From: Chloroflexota bacterium
GTDB taxonomy: Bacteria; Chloroflexota; UBA6077; CF-72
Assembly: GCA_019239775.1 (NCBI GenBank)
Contig: JAFAZN010000135.1
Location: forward strand, 1-64,000
Length of the DNA: 64,000 bases
Direction of reading: 5' to 3'
The notes beneath the pieces are model-generated. The model ran no database searches. It saw only the letters and a program-made list of their open reading frames with translations, and was not told the DNA's origin. Each line of letters starts with the position of its first letter. Within the stretch, counting starts at the first letter, position 1. Positions 2,108 through 54,688 of this stretch are shown piece by piece. A program made the translations under genes and the position numbers.

Positions 2108-3470
2108 TCCCCGCACGTTTGAGGAGCGCTTCGCGCTGTTTGGCGGCCGCGGCGACGGCATCTGATTCGCTGAATGCCAAAAGGCGCCCGTCCTGAACCA
2201 GGATGCGCCCGCCAACCAGCACGTGGCGTACATCTGAGGCGCGGGCCGAATACACGAGTTGGGTATAGACGTCTTCAGGCCCAACGACGTGGGCGCGTTG
2301 CAGATCCAACACGCACAGGTCGGCGTATTTGCCCACCTCGATGCTGCCGATGTCCGCATCGAGACCCAGCGCGCGCGCACCAGCAATAGTGGCCATCTCG
2401 AACAGCTGCTGCGCGGAAACCCCGGGCGGCCCGTCGCGAAAGCGCGAGAGGAGTCCAGCCAGGCGGATCTCCTCGAACGCGTCGAGCCGATTGTTCGAGG
2501 CTGCTCCGTCCGCGCCCAACGCGACGTTCACGCCACGGTCGAGGTACTCGGCGATCGGAGCCACCCCCGAGCCAAGCTTCATGTTGCAGGACGGGCAGTG
2601 CACCACCGTCGCCCCGCCGCTGGCGAGCACGTCGAACTCCTCAGGTTCCGGCCAGACGCAATGCGCGAAGCACGCGTTGATATCGGCCAGCCCGAGATTG
2701 GCCAACAAACGAATGTTGGTCACGCCGAAGCGCTGGCGCACAATGTCGGTCTCCTCGCGCTGCTCACTGGCGTGGGTGTGGACCAGAAGGCTATTGGCGC
2801 GCGCACGGGCACCGATGCTGCGCAGCAGGTCGTGCGTCGCGGTCAACACGAAGCGCGGCGAATACGCATAGCGCAAACGGCCATCATGGCTGCCATGCCA
2901 TCTGTCGGCGAGACGATCGTTATCGCGCAGCGCTTGGGCGGTCGGCTCGAGCAGACCTGACGGCACGCCGTCGCCCGCATCCATCAGCGCCTTGCCGCCG
3001 GTGTACCGGATGCCGCTCTCTGCGGCGGCCTCGAACACGGCGTCGGTGTGGTGGACAGTGCCCATGTCGAGGATCGCGGTGGTGCCGCCGAGCAGGAGGT
3101 CCGCGATGCCGAGACTCGCGGATGCGTGCAGCGAAGCTGGATCGTGCGCGGCCTCCAGCGGCCAGATGCGTTCGCGCAGCCACTCCAGCAGCGTCTGTTC
3201 TTCTGCGAGGCCGCGAAAAAGGGTCTGGCAGAGGTGAATGTGGGCTTGCACCAGGCCTGGCACAACCACGTGGCCGCTCACGTCAATGGACTGATCCGCG
3301 GACACGTTCGAGGCAGGCTCCGCCAGTGCGGCAACGCGTCCGTCTGCGCCAACCAGGACGTCGGCATCAATGAGCGTGCGCAGCGGGTCCATCGTGACCA
3401 CGTGCGCCCCGCGGAGCGCGAGCGCGGCGTGTGGCTGTGCGTTAGCTGCCGCGGTAGGAGGTGCAGGCAT
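2100..3470 (-). CDS. Amidohydrolase-superfamily deaminase (ATZ/TRZ, SAH/guanine deaminase type)
   Basis: This 456-residue protein is a metal-dependent hydrolase. The metal-binding H-x-H is in QAHIHLCQTLFRG (residues 77 and 79). It is followed by V-H-T-H-A-S-E-Q, the A-H-C motif near 270 and the catalytic G-A-D-G-A-A-S-N-N motif near 325. This pattern belongs to the subgroup of S-adenosylhomocysteine/methylthioadenosine/5'-deoxyadenosine deaminases, 8-oxoguanine deaminase and triazine hydrolases. The gene sits last in a tight minus-strand cluster with 5-hydroxyisourate hydrolase and allantoinase and overlaps the former by 29 bp. A purine base such as guanine or 8-oxoguanine is therefore the most likely substrate. 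The exact substrate is an inference from context. Its end overlaps the small plus-strand gene by 8 bp. Confidence 0.82.
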   Translation of the reverse strand: MPAPPTAAANAQPHAALALRGAHVVTMDPLRTLIDADVLVGADGRVAALAEPASNVSADQSIDVSGHVVVPGLVQAHIHLCQTLFRGLAEEQTLLEWLRERIWPLEAAHDPASLHASASLGIADLLLGGTTAILDMGTVHHTDAVFEAAAESGIRYTGGKALMDAGDGVPSGLLEPTAQALRDNDRLADRWHGSHDGRLRYAYSPRFVLTATHDLLRSIGARARANSLLVHTHASEQREETDIVRQRFGVTNIRLLANLGLADINACFAHCVWPEPEEFDVLASGGATVVHCPSCNMKLGSGVAPIAEYLDRGVNVALGADGAASNNRLDAFEEIRLAGLLSRFRDGPPGVSAQQLFEMATIAGARALGLDADIGSIEVGKYADLCVLDLQRAHVVGPEDVYTQLVYSARASDVRHVLVGGRILVQDGRLLAFSESDAVAAAAKQREALLKRAGIT

Positions 3471-5120: not shown

Positions 5121-6151
5121 TCCGACCCGAGCGCTTTCTGCATGCCGCTGAGCACGTGGTGGACGGCGTCCATTCGGGCGTCGGCGCCGAGCAGCCCAAG
5201 ACGCCACTTGTCCGGTTGAAGGCGTGTGACATACACGCCGAAGTCCTCGAGCAGGCGACGCCAGCTGTGCTCTGCATCCACGCCCGCGGGAAGTTGCACA
5301 ATCGCGTAGGGTCCCTCACCGCCTGGCTCCAGGCCGAGCGCGCTGAGACCTCGACGCAGCGCCTCTCCGACCTCGGCATGGCGTCGCCAGCGGGTTTCCA
5401 GAGTCTCGAGCTGCAGCAAGCGCAGCGCTTCGCGCAGTCCATACACCAGGCTCGTCGGCGCGGTGTGGTGATTCAGCCGTTCGGGACTCCAGTACGCCTG
5501 CAGCTGCAGCAAATCGAGGTAACTGGTGCGCGGCGGCTGTGCACGCTGATGCATGCGCGCGCTGATCTCAGGCGAGTAGGTCACCAGGGACATGCCCGAT
5601 GGGGCGCCAATCGCGTGATCCACCCCGGCGACGCACACATCGATTCCCCAATCATCCACGCCAAGCTCGCAGGCGCCCAGGCCCATCGTCGCGTCTACGA
5701 TGAGCCGCGCGTCCAACGCATGGGCGCGCGCTGCCAGCGACCGGACGTCAACGCGTGTTCCCGTGAACGGGTCAATCAGTGGCGCGACCACGTAGGCCGC
5801 ATGGGCCTCCGGCGTTACGGGTTGGGCGCCGAGGCGTGCGACGATCTCAGCGGTGGAACGCGCAAACTCAGGACTTCCCGCTATAGCCACTGCAGCGCGT
5901 GCATCCAGAAGCGTGTTCAGGACCGCCTCCAGGCCGCCACTGGCGAGCGCGGAAATCGCAAAGCAATGCGGGCTGCTGGTCAGGAACGTCGCCCGAGCCA
6001 GCTGGACGACGTCGTCCATGATCGTCGTGAAGTCGGGGTCGAACTGGCCGATGAGCGGCGTCGTGAGCGCGCGCAGCACCCGCGGATCGGGGGTGCTCGG
6101 CCCGCCGCCAGCCAACAGACGGGCCGGCAGCTGCAGCTCGGCAATGGGCAT
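5117..6151 (-). CDS. PucG-like class V aminotransferase homologue lacking the PLP lysine
   Basis: This 344-residue protein has the fold of alanine-glyoxylate / (S)-ureidoglycine-glyoxylate aminotransferases. It shows GGGPSTPDPRVLRAL at the N-terminus, G-Q-F-D-P-D-F, the S-G-G-L-E-A-V segment for phosphate binding and the PLP-ring Asp in L-I-V-D-A-T. In the family the cofactor lysine lies in S-G-S-Q-K-x-L-x-A-P-P-G. Here the same place reads A-G-V-D-H-A-I-G-A-P-S-G, so His 179 (codon at 5615-5617) replaces the lysine. Transaminase chemistry by the usual mechanism is therefore not expected. The gene is first in the coupled set aminotransferase-allantoinase-HIU hydrolase-deaminase. Loss of activity, a new reaction or a regulatory role are all open. 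Confidence 0.85.
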   Translation of the reverse strand: MPIAELQLPARLLAGGGPSTPDPRVLRALTTPLIGQFDPDFTTIMDDVVQLARATFLTSSPHCFAISALASGGLEAVLNTLLDARAAVAIAGSPEFARSTAEIVARLGAQPVTPEAHAAYVVAPLIDPFTGTRVDVRSLAARAHALDARLIVDATMGLGACELGVDDWGIDVCVAGVDHAIGAPSGMSLVTYSPEISARMHQRAQPPRTSYLDLLQLQAYWSPERLNHHTAPTSLVYGLREALRLLQLETLETRWRRHAEVGEALRRGLSALGLEPGGEGPYAIVQLPAGVDAEHSWRRLLEDFGVYVTRLQPDKWRLGLLGADARMDAVHHVLSGMQKALGSE

Positions 6152-7412: not shown

Positions 7413-9710
7413 TCAGCCCCGGCGCAGGAGGGCGGCCAGGCGCGTGGGCGTCAGCGGCGTGCGGTCGATACGGACTCCGGCGCTGTGGAGGGCGTCTTCG
7501 ACCGCGTTCGCGATGGCCGCCGGCGGGGCCATCGCGCCGCCCTCGCCGAGTCCCTTCACGCCGAGCGGGTTCAGCGGCGACGGCGTGTACACGTGCGCCA
7601 CCGCGATCGGCGGGATCTGCCCAGCCGACGGCATGCAATAGTCCATCAACGATTGCGACAGGAAGTTGGCCTGCTCGTCGTAGGTCAGTTCTTCGTAGAG
7701 CGCGCCGCCAATGCCCTGGGCCACGCCGCCTACGATCTGGCCGTCGACGATGACCGGGTTGATCAGCGGCCCGGCGTCCGAAACGACGGCGTACTCGAGA
7801 ATGCGGACGGCCAGGGTCTCGCGGTCGACCTCCACGACGGCCAGGTGCACGCCGCTGGCGAAGGTTGCCCTAGGTGCCAGGAAGTAATGCGTTGCCTCGA
7901 GGCCCGGCGGCATACCTTCCGGCAGCGGCTTTCCCGGAGCCGCCGCGGCCGAGAGTTGACCCAGTGTGATACGCCGGTGTGGCGCACCACGAACGTGGAT
8001 GCCACCCTCTGAGAGCTCCAGGTCTGCCTGTTCAACCTCCAGCAGATGCGCTGCAAGCGCGAACGCCTTGGCGCGGACCGCACGCGCAGCGGCGTGCGCG
8101 GCGTTGCCGGCCACGACCGCGTTGCGACTGGCGTAGGTACCAACTCCGAACGGGATGGCATCGGTATCGCCGTGCAACACCGTCACCGCCGACGGCGCAA
8201 TATCCAGTTGTGAGGCGACGATTTGCGCCAGCGCGGTCGCCGTGCCCTGACCGTGCGGCGAGGCGCCCGTCACCAGCAGCAGCTCGCCGCTCGGGTCCAC
8301 CCGCAGCAGGCTGCTCTCGTGCGGCCCCAGGCCCGTGAGCATGACGTAGGCGCCGAGGCCAATGCCCAGCCAGCGCTCCGGTTCTGCCTTCTGGCGCTTG
8401 CGCCAGTCTGCGTAGTGCCCTAGATCGAGAACGCGATCCAGGCCCTCCGCGTAGTTGCCGCTGTCGTACACGACCGGCGTCTGGGCCGACTCCGTGCCCA
8501 CTTCCCAGGGAAACTCCTCGGGCGAGATGAAGTTCCTACGGCGCACATCAGCCGGGTCCAGCCCGAGCTCCTGGGCGACGCGGTCGACGACGCGTTCGGT
8601 GGCAAAGACCGCTTCGGGCTGGCCCGCTCCTCGATAGGCGGCCGCCGGGGCTTTGTTGGTGAGCGCCACGCGCACGTGACACTGATAGTTGTGGAAGCGA
8701 TACGGCCCGGGCAGACCGGCAGCGGTCAGGGACGGGCACAGGATGCCGAGGCTCCGTGTATAGGCGCCCTGATCCGACAGGACGTCGGCGCGCATGCCGA
8801 GGATCGTTCCGTCGTTGCGAACAGCGAGTTGCATGTCGTGCCATTGCTCTCGCGCATGCACCGCCGTGCACAGGTGCTCGCGACGACTCTCTACCCACTT
8901 GACTGGTCGACCGAGTCGGCGCGCAAGCAGGGCGATCACAACCTCTTCGGGGTAGACGTCCTGCTTGATCCCGAAGCCGCCGCCAACGTCGGGCGCGATG
9001 ACGCGGATGGCCTGCTCGGGCAATTCCAGCAACTTTGCCAGCGCCTCACGCACCGTGTGCGGCCACTGGGTGGACGTCCACAGCGTGAGTCGATTGCGGC
9101 CAGCGTCCCAGACGGCCGCCACGCCGCGAGCCTCGAGTGGCATTCCGCTGTAGCGCTGGACATAGAACCGACCACGCACCACCCGATCGGCGGCGGCGAA
9201 CGCCCCTTCTGGATCGCCAACGCGAACATCGAAGCTACCCGCCAGGTTGTCGCCGAGCTGTTGGTGAAGGACTGGCGCGCTGAATTCGACGGCCGCTTCT
9301 GCACTGGGCACGGGCTGCAGCGGCTCGTAGTCGACCTGGACGGCTGCCGCCCCGTCCTCGGCAGTCGCGCGGGTTTCGGCGGCGACGACTGCAATCGGCT
9401 CGCCGACATAGCGCACCGCGCCGTCGGCCAGAATCGGCTGGCCGCACGGACGTAGCGCCGGGTGCGGCACAACCGCGGGGATCCGCCGGGCGCCGAGGTC
9501 GTACGCGGTTGCGACGGACACGACACCGGCAACTTGAAGCGCGTCGGCAACGCGGATGGTGCGCAATCGGGCGTGCGGATACTCGCCGCGCGCGAACGCT
9601 ACATGAAGCTGACGCGGGAGCTCCAGGTCCTCGATGAAGGTGGCTTGCCCGCGCAGCAGGCGCGGGTCCTCCAGTCGCCGCATCGCGGCGCCCATGCCTT
9701 GTAAGGGCAT
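7413..9710 (-). CDS. Molybdenum hydroxylase large subunit (xanthine dehydrogenase / CoxL form II-like)
   Basis: This 765-residue protein is the molybdopterin-cytosine-dinucleotide subunit of the xanthine oxidase family. It starts with R-R-L-E-D-P-R-L-L-R-G, carries V-G-E-P-I-A-V-V, and contains D-V-G-G-G-F-G-I-K, A-Y-R-G-A-G-Q-P-E-A and the catalytic Glu in V-K-G-L-G-E-G-G. The A-Y-R-G-A-G motif is that of form II CoxL-like enzymes. The A-Y-R-C-S-F-R of genuine form I CO dehydrogenase is absent. Such enzymes hydroxylate purines, aldehydes or N-heterocycles with FAD and 2Fe-2S partner subunits, but neither partner gene is adjacent. Being next to allantoin genes, a purine substrate such as hypoxanthine or xanthine is plausible. 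It is transcribed away from an SDR gene that starts 59 bp upstream. Confidence 0.87.
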   Translation of the reverse strand: MPLQGMGAAMRRLEDPRLLRGQATFIEDLELPRQLHVAFARGEYPHARLRTIRVADALQVAGVVSVATAYDLGARRIPAVVPHPALRPCGQPILADGAVRYVGEPIAVVAAETRATAEDGAAAVQVDYEPLQPVPSAEAAVEFSAPVLHQQLGDNLAGSFDVRVGDPEGAFAAADRVVRGRFYVQRYSGMPLEARGVAAVWDAGRNRLTLWTSTQWPHTVREALAKLLELPEQAIRVIAPDVGGGFGIKQDVYPEEVVIALLARRLGRPVKWVESRREHLCTAVHAREQWHDMQLAVRNDGTILGMRADVLSDQGAYTRSLGILCPSLTAAGLPGPYRFHNYQCHVRVALTNKAPAAAYRGAGQPEAVFATERVVDRVAQELGLDPADVRRRNFISPEEFPWEVGTESAQTPVVYDSGNYAEGLDRVLDLGHYADWRKRQKAEPERWLGIGLGAYVMLTGLGPHESSLLRVDPSGELLLVTGASPHGQGTATALAQIVASQLDIAPSAVTVLHGDTDAIPFGVGTYASRNAVVAGNAAHAAARAVRAKAFALAAHLLEVEQADLELSEGGIHVRGAPHRRITLGQLSAAAAPGKPLPEGMPPGLEATHYFLAPRATFASGVHLAVVEVDRETLAVRILEYAVVSDAGPLINPVIVDGQIVGGVAQGIGGALYEELTYDEQANFLSQSLMDYCMPSAGQIPPIAVAHVYTPSPLNPLGVKGLGEGGAMAPPAAIANAVEDALHSAGVRIDRTPLTPTRLAALLRRG

Positions 9711-51186: not shown

Positions 51187-51384
51187 ATGAGCCAGTCTGA
51201 GGAGGACGTTCGCCGCGACCTGGTGCTTGCCAACCGCCTCGAAGACATCGCCGACGAGTCTGGCCCCAACACCAACCTCCTGGTCGTGAACATGCAGCAG
51301 GGGTTATTGGCCCAGCGTAAGCTCGGTTGCTTTCACGTAGACCGACACGTGGCCGCCGGACTCCAGGCCAAGCCGGTCGACTGA
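51187..51384 (+). CDS. Small open frame after the GNAT gene (doubtful)
   Basis: This 65-codon frame starts at ATG 51187, 7 bp after the GNAT stop. Its N-terminal part is charged and helical (S-E-E-D-V-R-R-D-L-V-L-A-N-R-L). Its last 27 codons are antisense to the end of the GntR-Mop gene. No strong ribosome-binding site is seen. It could be a small real protein (about 40 non-overlapping residues) or a chance frame. Confidence 0.3.
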   Translation: MSQSEEDVRRDLVLANRLEDIADESGPNTNLLVVNMQQGLLAQRKLGCFHVDRHVAAGLQAKPVD

Positions 51385-51984
51385 CGAGCGCGTGACGGCC
51401 GCGATGAGCTGCTGTCCTTCGCGCAGGTCGATCGTGACTTCGGCGAGCAGTTCGCCGGCACGAATGGCGGCCACACGACCGCGCACGCGATTGCGCGCGG
51501 AGAGCAGCGGCGCCTCCTGTTGGCCAAGCGTTTCGGGCACCCGCGCACCTGAGACCGGCCGGCCGTGCGCGGCGAGCTCGGCGCGCAGCGCTTCCGCGAT
51601 TTCATCCGGTTCCAGGCCCATCGCCAGCCCACGAACAGCCGTTTGCCGCGCGAGCAGACGTAACCGATCGAGCCGCTGACGCTGCAGCGCTGGCTGGTCC
51701 AGCCGTTCGCGCGCAGCAATCTCCGAGCCGCCGCCGGCTCGCGCTTTAATGGTGCCCTCGCGCGAGAGGTCGGCGTACGCGCGCCCGACAGTGTTCGGGG
51801 AGAGTCCAAGCTTCCGCGCCAGGTCACGCACCGACGGCAGATGGTCGCCTGGCTGCAGTGTTCCATCGGCAACGCCCATCCGAATGCGCCGCTCGATCTG
51901 GATGTACACCGGTGCTGGATCGTCCTGATGCAGCGTCCGCAACGACTCGACCAGGGTGTCGGCGACGAGGGTGTCGTCGGTCAT
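51304..51984 (-). CDS. GntR-family regulator fused to a Mop (molybdate-binding) domain
   Basis: This is a 226-residue protein. The N-terminal GntR winged helix covers about 20-90 (P-V-Y-I-Q-I-E-R-R-I-R-M-G-V and L-P-S-V-R-D-L-A-R-K-L-G-L-S-P-N-T-V-G-R-A-Y). A short helical linker is followed by a Mop/TOBE domain at 163-224 (S-A-R-N-R-V-R-G-R-V, A-E-V-T-I-D-L, I-A-A-V-T-R-S-S-V-D-R-L-G-L and V-Y-V-K-A-T-E). Mop domains bind molybdate or tungstate in ModE. This should be a molybdate-responsive repressor or activator with a GntR DNA-binding domain instead of the ModE one. The ATG overlaps the udgX stop as ATGA (51981-51984). Confidence 0.9.
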   Translation of the reverse strand: MTDDTLVADTLVESLRTLHQDDPAPVYIQIERRIRMGVADGTLQPGDHLPSVRDLARKLGLSPNTVGRAYADLSREGTIKARAGGGSEIAARERLDQPALQRQRLDRLRLLARQTAVRGLAMGLEPDEIAEALRAELAAHGRPVSGARVPETLGQQEAPLLSARNRVRGRVAAIRAGELLAEVTIDLREGQQLIAAVTRSSVDRLGLESGGHVSVYVKATELTLGQ

Positions 51985-52634
51985 TGTCCGAGGAGATGTT
52001 TTACCGTCCGCAGATCCTCGACGAAAGCACGTTGTTCTGATTCGCGCGTTTCGGGGTCCGGTGCGCGAAGGATGCTGGCCGGGTGGACCGTTGCCAAGAC
52101 GAAGGGCGCCAGCCCGGTGTTTTCGATCGCGCGACCACGTTGCTGGGTGACGCGGAAGGATGCCCCGAGCAGCGCCTGGGCAGCCGTTGCGCCGAGCACC
52201 ACGATCACGCGCGGGGCGACATCCTCCAGTTCGGCATCCAACCAGGGGCGACAGGCCCGAATTTCGCGCGCATTTGGTTTGCTGTGAATGCGGCGCTTGC
52301 CTTTGCCCGCGGTCCACTTGAAGTGCTTGACCGCGTTGGTCACATACACCCGCGTACGGTCGATGCCTGCTTCATCGAGCGCTTCATCCAGCAGCCTTCC
52401 CGCCGGTCCCACGAACGGCCGACCCGCACGGTCCTCCTGGTCGCCCGGTTGTTCGCCGATGAACATCACCTCGGCGCGAGGTGGCCCCTCACCAAACACC
52501 GTCTGCGTCCCCAGTGCGTAGAGGTCACATCCATGGCAGGTTGCCGCGGCGTCCTTGAGTCGTTCGAGCGTGGGTTCGGCTTCGTGAGGGAGGAACTGCG
52601 TGGCGTCCCAAGGCACGTCTTCGGTGGTAGTCAC
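51981..52634 (-). CDS. udgX: UdgX family uracil-DNA binding/glycosylase protein
   Basis: This 217-residue protein shows the UdgX features: G-E-Q-P-G-D-Q-E-D (60-68), N-A-V-K-H-F-K-W (100-107), the diagnostic K-R-R-I-H loop (113-117) and T-V-H-P-A-S-I-L-R (182-190). In UdgX the His of K-R-R-I-H forms a covalent bond to the sugar after uracil removal. Cysteines at 33, 36 and 128 are candidate iron-sulfur ligands, and His 104 stands where family-4 enzymes have the fourth. The start GTG 52634 removes a shadow N-terminus antisense to the DUF255 gene. It is coupled to the downstream GntR-Mop gene and is divergent from the DUF255 gene (17 bp). Confidence 0.93.
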
Positions 52635-52651
52635 GGTATACCCTGTACCAC

Positions 52652-54688
52652 GTGGCGAATCGCCTGGCCAACGAGACCAGTCCCTACCTCCTGCAGCATG
52701 CGCACAATCCGGTGGACTGGTATCCGTGGGGACCTGAGGCGCTCGAGCGAGCGAAAAGCGAAAACAGGCCGATTCTGCTGTCAATCGGCTACTCAGCCTG
52801 CCGCTGGTGCCACGTCATGGAGCGCGAGTCGTTCGAAAATCCCCAGATCGCCGCGATCATGAACGCCTCGTTCGTGTGCATCAAAGTGGACCGTGAGGAG
52901 CGGCCGGACCTCGACGGCATCTACATGCAAGCTGTGCAGGCGATGACCGGCTCGGGCGGCTGGCCGATGACCGTGTTTCTGGCGCCCGATGGCACGCCGT
53001 TTTACGGTGGTACGTACTATCCGCCGGCCGATCGCGCCAACATGCCCGGATTTCCACGCGTGTTGCTCGCAATTTCGGACGCGTGGCAAAACCGACGTGC
53101 GGATGTCCTGCAGAGCGGGGCTCGCCTCCGCGAGGCATTGCAGCAAGTCACGCAACTGGGGACGCCGACCTCGCTCCTGGATACCGCGCTGCTGGACGAA
53201 GCCGCAAAGGGATTGATCACGCAGCACGATCCGGAGGATGGCGGATTCGGGCGGGCGCCGAAGTTTCCACAGCCGATGGCGCTGGAGTTTCTCCTCCGCT
53301 ATTGGCGCCGTTCGCAGAATCCAGAGGCGCTGCAGGTCGTCACGCACACCCTGGATCGGATGGCGCGTGGCGGCATTTACGATCACCTCGGCGGCGGATT
53401 TGCGCGCTACAGCACCGACTCAGAATGGCTGGCGCCACACTTTGAAAAGATGCTGTACGACAACGCGCAGCTTGCGCGGGCGTACCTGATGGCCTATCAG
53501 GTGACAGGCAACGCGTTTTTCAAAGACGTCACGGACGAAGTGATCGCCTACGTCCTGCGCGATATGACCGACCAATCCGGCGGGTTCTATTCGACGGAGG
53601 ACGCCGACTCCGAAGGCGAAGAAGGCAAGTTCTATCTCTGGACGCCCTCGGAGTTAGAAACGTTACTCGGTCCGCAGGACGCCCGATTGTTTGGCGCGTT
53701 TTACGACGTCCGGACGCCCGGGAACTTCGAGGGTCGCGCCAGCATCCTGCGTGCGCTGCATACGCCGTTGGAGACTGCGCAACGGCTCGGCGTGACGGAA
53801 GCGGAGTTGCTCGCAGCCTTGGAGCGTGGGCGCACAATCCTGTTCGAGGCGCGCAGTAAACGCGTCCGCCCTGCGCGTGATGAAAAAGTTCTGGCGGCCT
53901 GGAACGGCTTGATGCTGCGCGCCCTCGCGGAGGCAGGTGCTGTCCTGGAACGTGCCGACTTCGTCGCGGCGGCAGAGCGCAATGCCACGTTTCTGCTGGA
54001 GCACATGCGTACCGCGGATGGGCACCTCCACCGCACCTGGAAGCCCGGACACGCCGCCAGGCTCAACGCCTACCTGGAGGATTACGCCAACGTCGCCGAC
54101 GGACTACTGGCGTTGTATGAAGCGACCTTCAATGCGCGCTGGCTGACCGCGGCCATGGATTTGGCTGACATCATCCTGCACGAGTTCGCGGATCCCGAAA
54201 ATGGCGGATTCTTCGACACCTCCATTCAACACGAGACGTTGATCACTCGGCCCAAAGACGTGTTCGACAACGCAACGCCGTCGGGCAATTCGGTTGCGGC
54301 GGATGTGCTCCTCCGGTTGGCGCTTCTTACCGACCGAACGGATTACCGCGACGCAGCTGAAGGTGTGCTCCACCTCCTGCGCGAGGCCATAGTGCGCTAT
54401 CCGCTCGGTTTCGCACGGGCGTTGAATGCGCTGGACTTCTTCCTGGACGCACCACGTGAAGTGGCCATCGTCGGTCCGGCCGACTCGGCGCAGGGTTTAC
54501 GGCAGGTGGTATTCGAACCGTTCGTGCCCAATAAGGTCGTTGCCGGCGGCGGTGCAGACATTGCCCTTCTGCATGGAAAAGAGGTCCACAACGGTCACGC
54601 AGTGGCCTATGTTTGCCAGCACTACGTGTGTAAGGCGCCGACCAGCGATCCAGTGGAGCTGCGTAAGCAAGTTGTGGGGGAGGTCTAG
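52652..54688 (+). CDS. Thioredoxin-domain DUF255 protein (YyaL/SPATA20 type)
   Basis: This is a 678-residue protein. Residues 1-160 form a thioredoxin-like domain with N-P-V-D-W-Y-P-W-G and the redox motif C-R-W-C-H-V-M (Cys 50 and 53). The rest is an (alpha/alpha)6-barrel of the N-acylglucosamine-epimerase type ([24 protein letters not shown]). The whole length and layout match bacterial YyaL and animal SPATA20, whose reaction is unknown. The GTG start at 52652 gives the expected N-terminus [15 protein letters not shown]. It precedes a hydrolase and an LLM enzyme gene with overlapping ends. Confidence 0.94.

Follow-up and report, generated by a model that had tools for sequence, protein, structure and literature searches.

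A GntR–Mop fusion protein as a candidate molybdate-responsive repressor in a genus of soil Chloroflexota

Analysis of a 64,000-nt stretch of DNA from an uncultured soil Chloroflexota bacterium (contig JAFAZN010000135.1, hereafter the window) identified a gene, gntR-mop, that joins a YtrA-like GntR DNA-binding domain to a single Mop/TOBE domain and overlaps the end of a udgX gene. On balance we favor, with somewhat better than even confidence, the reading that its product is a molybdate- or tungstate-responsive repressor of molybdate uptake that acts through a site shared by modA and modB, with udgX as a passive operon partner. The window genome (G000) is a 7.2-Mb assembly of 507 contigs that is 91% complete. 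The genus was sampled with three genomes (G000, G001, and G002), all fragmented metagenome-assembled genomes (MAGs) of 89–93% completeness; the two nearest congeners are also Chloroflexota MAGs.

Domain architecture of GntR-Mop

The gene and its domains are located in the window as follows, with the basis of each assignment in parentheses.

51304–51984, minus strand: gntR-mop, encoding a YtrA-like GntR regulator with a single Mop/TOBE domain, 226 aa (profile matches)
51721–51906, minus strand: GntR winged helix-turn-helix, residues 27–88 (PF00392)
51565–51693, minus strand: helical segment, approximately residues 98–140, like the short YtrA-type C-terminal part (profile matches; low-confidence model)
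51310–51504, minus strand: Mop/TOBE domain, residues 161–225 (TIGR00638; gap-free alignment to Tub, 9BEB)

A preliminary description of the window had called the product a GntR regulator with a clear Mop domain, a fusion unusual in comparison with ModE, and the three relevant profiles all score above their curated cut-offs. The Pfam GntR model (PF00392) matches residues 27–88 with 53.4 bits (cut-off 27), which places the protein in the GntR family, and the Pfam TOBE model (PF03459) matches residues 162–223 with 52.1 bits (cut-off 22.3). The NCBIfam model TIGR00638 ("Mop") gives 64.9 bits (cut-off 55), and by both this score and its residues the second domain is a Mop/molbindin domain. The ModE model PRK10676 matches through the Mop part only, with 24 bits (cut-off 369). 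Because the DNA-binding domain is of the GntR type and not the N-terminal HTH of ModE, the protein is placed outside ModE, yet would act like it.

Regulators of the YtrA subfamily carry a short helical C-terminal region (~50 aa, two helices) behind the winged helix, and most of their genes share an operon with an ABC transporter. Approximately residues 18–140 of GntR-Mop resemble free-standing GntR proteins of 135–157 aa, with profile matches that reach residue ~137. The protein differs from YtrA-subfamily regulators in its additional C-terminal Mop sensor and in its operon partner, which is udgX and not an ABC transporter. An AlphaFold2 model built from three sequences placed helices after the winged helix, but its confidence was low (mean pLDDT 52.8; Mop part under 50), and it was set aside as a basis for interpretation.

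The type-2 oxyanion site of the tungstate storage protein Tub is formed by Ser4, Arg6, Ser40, Lys60, and Ala61 (PMC11980592). In a gap-free alignment to Tub (9BEB), residues S162, R164, T198, K218, and A219 of GntR-Mop fall at these positions; a Thr also occupies the Ser40 position in both ModG domains. All five residues are invariant in the three members of the genus (protein identity 81–88%), in agreement with the Mop domain described earlier. Because the mapped site residues are intact in the alignment, GntR-Mop should bind molybdate or tungstate at Mop–Mop interfaces.

The udgX–gntR-mop pair and its conservation

The genes and motifs on the other side of gntR-mop are listed below.

51981–52634, minus strand: udgX, homologue of the cross-linking uracil-DNA glycosylase (TIGR03914; PDB 6iod and others; junction)
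52284–52298, minus strand: codons of the KRRIH R-loop of UdgX, residues 113–117 (translation; motif per PMC10359453)
52635–52649, plus strand: imperfect palindrome, GGTATACCCTGTACC, in the udgX–DUF255 intergenic region (only −10-like pieces recur in the congeners)
52652–54688, plus strand: divergent DUF255/thioredoxin-like (Thioredox_DsbH) gene, neighbor of udgX in the three congeners (profile matches)

UdgX is defined by its covalent cross-link to AP-DNA, formed after uracil excision. The udgX product scores 278 bits against the TIGR03914 "UdgX family" model (cut-off 190), matches solved structures of UdgX from Mycobacterium smegmatis (6iod and others; E ~1e-65, residues 11–211), and contains the GEQPG, KRRIH, and HPASILR motifs. 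KRRIH, the R-loop motif as defined in PMC10359453, and the profile score together assign the protein to this family. The KRRIH loop and the GEQPG motif are common to the M. smegmatis enzyme and the window protein; motif B differs (HPASILR in the window versus HPS(S/A)(L/V)(L/V)R), as does the GntR-Mop neighbor, which is found in the window genus only. The start of udgX is uncertain by at least one codon, as the congeners start at an ATG that aligns one codon downstream of the GTG in the window.

The udgX stop codon and the gntR-mop ATG overlap as ATGA (junction GGACAATGACC), as had been described, and the overlap is kept in all three species of the genus. Start/stop overlaps of 4 nt occur in 7 of the 50 tiled same-strand neighbor pairs in the window, some of whose ORFs are spurious; because such overlaps are common in the window, the one at udgX needs no special explanation. 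It is probable that udgX and gntR-mop share one transcript and are coupled in translation, with udgX carried along passively; the coupling most likely reflects mere operon layout and not a link between molybdate and DNA repair.

Outside G000, full-length gntR-mop orthologues turned up in the two congeners alone (88% and 82% identical). All three genomes have the gene order DUF255–udgX–gntR, in which the DUF255 gene is divergent, and typA flanks the pair at the opposite end. Scans of 400 Chloroflexota and 396 Actinomycetota genomes, in which approximately seven candidates per genome were scored at strict thresholds that weak fusions could escape, resulted in no further full-length, intact GntR-Mop, and no record in a plasmid collection covered at least 80% of the protein. 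G011, a genome from another family of the same order, encodes a diverged GntR–TOBE protein (L167:7357–7920, plus strand) in which the SARN and KA positions are gone and whose gene is not near udgX. Several relatives encode stand-alone Mop proteins of 67–71 aa with the same SARN...TRSS...KATE signature, and in G009 one of these is encoded directly upstream of modA–modB. The simplest history suggested by these sequences is that a YtrA-type GntR protein was fused with a molbindin within the genus. Conservation of the gene pair, proposed earlier as a check, is seen within the three species of the genus and goes no further: UdgX homologues (51–64% identity) in six other genomes have neither a GntR nor a Mop neighbor.

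Autoregulation is common among regulators, and the region upstream of udgX was considered in this light. The palindrome GGTATACCCTGTACC was rejected as an autoregulatory site, as it is exact only in the window and the congeners share just the TACCCT and TATACC/CATACT boxes; it is probably two overlapping −10-like boxes and not a conserved operator. No mod-type motif was found at the promoter of gntR-mop itself. The udgX and DUF255 starts lie 17 nt apart (52634–52652), each start codon closely preceded by −10-like boxes, and the two genes are a probable leaderless divergent pair.

A shared candidate site upstream of the mod genes

The candidate sites in G000 and the molybdoenzyme gene of the window are located as follows.

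G000:C253, around 3137–3157: candidate mod site of modA
G000:C415, around 5310–5330: candidate mod site of modB
7413–9710 of the window, minus strand: molybdoenzyme, CODH/xanthine-dehydrogenase-type large subunit (profile matches)

In G000, modA and modB are on different contigs, and comparison of their upstream regions revealed the same 20-nt sequence, TGTCCCTGCTACATTGCGTC, before both; these are the only two exact copies in the 7.2-Mb genome. This shared site, with its consensus WTGTNCNNGNTACATYGNNTC, is what is new here at the mod genes. That an exact 20-mer taken from modA should predict modB is not circular, and the chance of such a match is ~1e-5 if random sequence is searched over 14.4 Mb, both strands counted. 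Genome-wide searches allowing up to two mismatches resulted in two exact copies in G000, one exact copy in G001, one variant in G002, and none elsewhere. The variant TGTCCCTGATACATCGCATC precedes modA of G002, and the variant TTGTCCGAGATACATTGACTC is directly before the first gene of the G002 modB operon, a MoeA/Mog-like gene that overlaps modB. In G001, the exact copy lies before a gene that the contig end interrupts; no modB above the cut-off was found in G001, and the interrupted gene is plausibly a truncated modB.

Across the three genomes of the genus, five sites match the 21-nt consensus WTGTNCNNGNTACATYGNNTC perfectly; this count is descriptive, since the consensus was drawn from these five sites. 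No perfect match was found in the five relatives without an intact GntR-Mop (G003, G004, G005, G009, and G011). Matches to the 21-mer with two mismatches were rejected as noise, being about as numerous as those to a reversed control. Within the consensus lies a WTGT-N7-ACAT core, which is compatible with the general GntR consensus NyGTNxACNy (PMC4494728). The candidate site also contains a −10-like box (TACATT/TACATC), and at the modB-type sites the start codon follows this box by 5–8 nt, as expected of leaderless transcripts. The possibility that the shared element is a known RNA was checked against Rfam, which gave no matches at the mod loci.

The preliminary description had further suggested that the regulator controls the molybdoenzyme of the window, and sites were to be sought upstream of positions 9710 and 52634. 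No candidate site is present at either: the best scores for a mod-type site are 0.4 before the molybdoenzyme gene and 6.0 before udgX, compared to 29.6–35.7 for the five sites, and none of the matches to WTGTNCNNGNTACATYGNNTC listed by the consensus search is on contig C480. The suggestion is accordingly not supported. Among the tested ORFs adjoining the molybdoenzyme gene, none encodes a FAD or Fe-S partner subunit; its neighbors encode an SDR, an NHL-repeat protein, and amidohydrolases.

Several other features of the mod loci were observed. ModA in the genus is a fusion of a molybdate-binding protein with a C-terminal Oxidored_molyb domain (PF00174, 36–37 bits, cut-off 24; L186:3205–4815 and L188:5240–6892). 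The MoeA/Mog-like protein that heads the G002 modB operon (345 aa; L200:6848–7885, minus strand) has no Pfam match, and its best PDB matches are MoeA (1uz5) and Mog (2g4r), with E values of 0.07–0.08. A sulfite-oxidase-type molybdoenzyme is encoded near modB of G000 (L199:2479–3537, plus strand). Downstream of a second modA in G002, at the edge of a contig, is a dyad, ATGTACCTGCTACAT (ATGTA-N5-TACAT; L189:111–126), that resembles the core of the mod site and whose target gene is cut off.

Regulatory model and alternative explanations

A search of G000 with PF03459 (E ≤ 0.001) found GntR-Mop alone; further PF03459 matches in the congeners are weak and fall in long frames, which leaves GntR-Mop as the only strong Mop domain there. 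The candidate mod site accompanies GntR-Mop in each of the three genus members, and intact forms of both are absent from the five relatives. Because of this co-occurrence, and because no other Mop sensor was seen, GntR-Mop is proposed as the reader of the candidate site. Against this, no genomic linkage between gntR-mop and the mod genes was seen, and the motif is missing from the promoter of gntR-mop itself. In the proposed model, a YtrA-type GntR repressor and a molbindin would form a one-component regulator responsive to molybdate or tungstate, in which oxyanion bound at the Mop–Mop interfaces would determine how the winged helices are arranged. Once loaded, the protein would occupy the WTGT-N7-ACAT sites that overlap the −10-like box at modA and at modB, and the dimer on the site would block RNA polymerase. 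The logic would be that of ModE, with the oxyanion-loaded regulator shutting off molybdate uptake when molybdenum is sufficient. More tentatively, and just short of an even chance in our estimation, this may be a separate class of molybdate-responsive repressor, one that took over from the stand-alone Mop in a single genus of Chloroflexota and controls dispersed mod genes via its own 21-nt operator.

GntR-Mop might sense molybdenum or tungsten and have its targets elsewhere, with a different regulator reading the shared mod site. The proposed pairing of protein and site is indirect, several other GntR-type matches exist in G000 (a genome 91% complete), and a Mop-less regulator could read a motif that is in part a −10-like box. 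This reading nevertheless seems unlikely to us, given that GntR-Mop is the sole Mop-domain protein found in G000 and accompanies the site, intact, in three of three genomes, with intact forms of both absent from five relatives. A local role, in which the protein controls the divergent DUF255 and udgX–gntR genes through the palindrome at 52635–52649, is improbable: the conserved order of the three genes and the single exact match to the palindrome pattern in the window, where none is expected, speak for it, the latter with a pattern taken from the palindrome itself, but the palindrome is missing from both congeners, in which only the two −10-like boxes recur, and YtrA-type sites are almost never located between divergent operons (PMC4494728).

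A constitutive GntR regulator that keeps its Mop domain as a storage or structural relic is harder still to credit. The GntR–TOBE protein of G011, in losing its SARN and KA positions, indicates that such fusions can decay, but every mapped site residue of GntR-Mop is invariant across three species whose proteins are 81–88% identical. Finally, the preliminary description had linked molybdate sensing to uracil-DNA handling; in this reading, udgX expression would track molybdenum supply. The conserved ATGA overlap is in keeping with this link, which we regard as very improbable: the pair is restricted to the genus, UdgX homologues in six other genomes lack such a partner, 4-nt overlaps are common in the window, and no mod-type site precedes udgX.

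Comparison with known systems and significance

ModE acts on mod genes as a one-component regulator whose oxyanion sensor is a Mop domain (PMC11980592). Among the TOBE-domain regulators of human gut genomes, the major architectures are an HTH of the ModE type joined to one or two TOBE domains and the TaoR-like HTH–PBP–TOBE (PMC11980592). GntR-Mop likewise joins a DNA-binding domain to a Mop oxyanion sensor in one component; it differs from ModE, which has one or two Mop domains, in its GntR/YtrA winged helix and single Mop domain, in not being encoded beside mod genes, and in its candidate site, WTGTNCNNGNTACATYGNNTC. Like the TaoR-like proteins it is another DNA-binding type joined to TOBE, with a different DNA-binding domain and without the PBP domain. 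Its whole Mop domain aligns without gaps to 9BEB, MopII, and both ModG domains; the molbindins Mop, Tub, and ModG are storage or homeostasis proteins, whereas the Mop of GntR-Mop is fused to a DNA-binding domain. The main text of the GntR survey of Suvorova and colleagues mentions neither TOBE nor molybdate (PMC4494728). Our literature search found no paper combining GntR, a Mop domain, and molybdate, and nothing on a GntR–Mop fusion or on udgX gene neighborhoods.

The case of udgX is a warning that operon adjacency is no proof of functional coupling. The uncultured soil Chloroflexota concerned carry aerobic CO-dehydrogenase-like molybdoenzymes, and GntR-Mop and the mod site offer a directly testable protein–DNA pair from these organisms. 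If the model is true, a GntR-based sensor with a predicted operator would indicate that molybdenum sensing can be rebuilt from a molbindin and an unrelated repressor.
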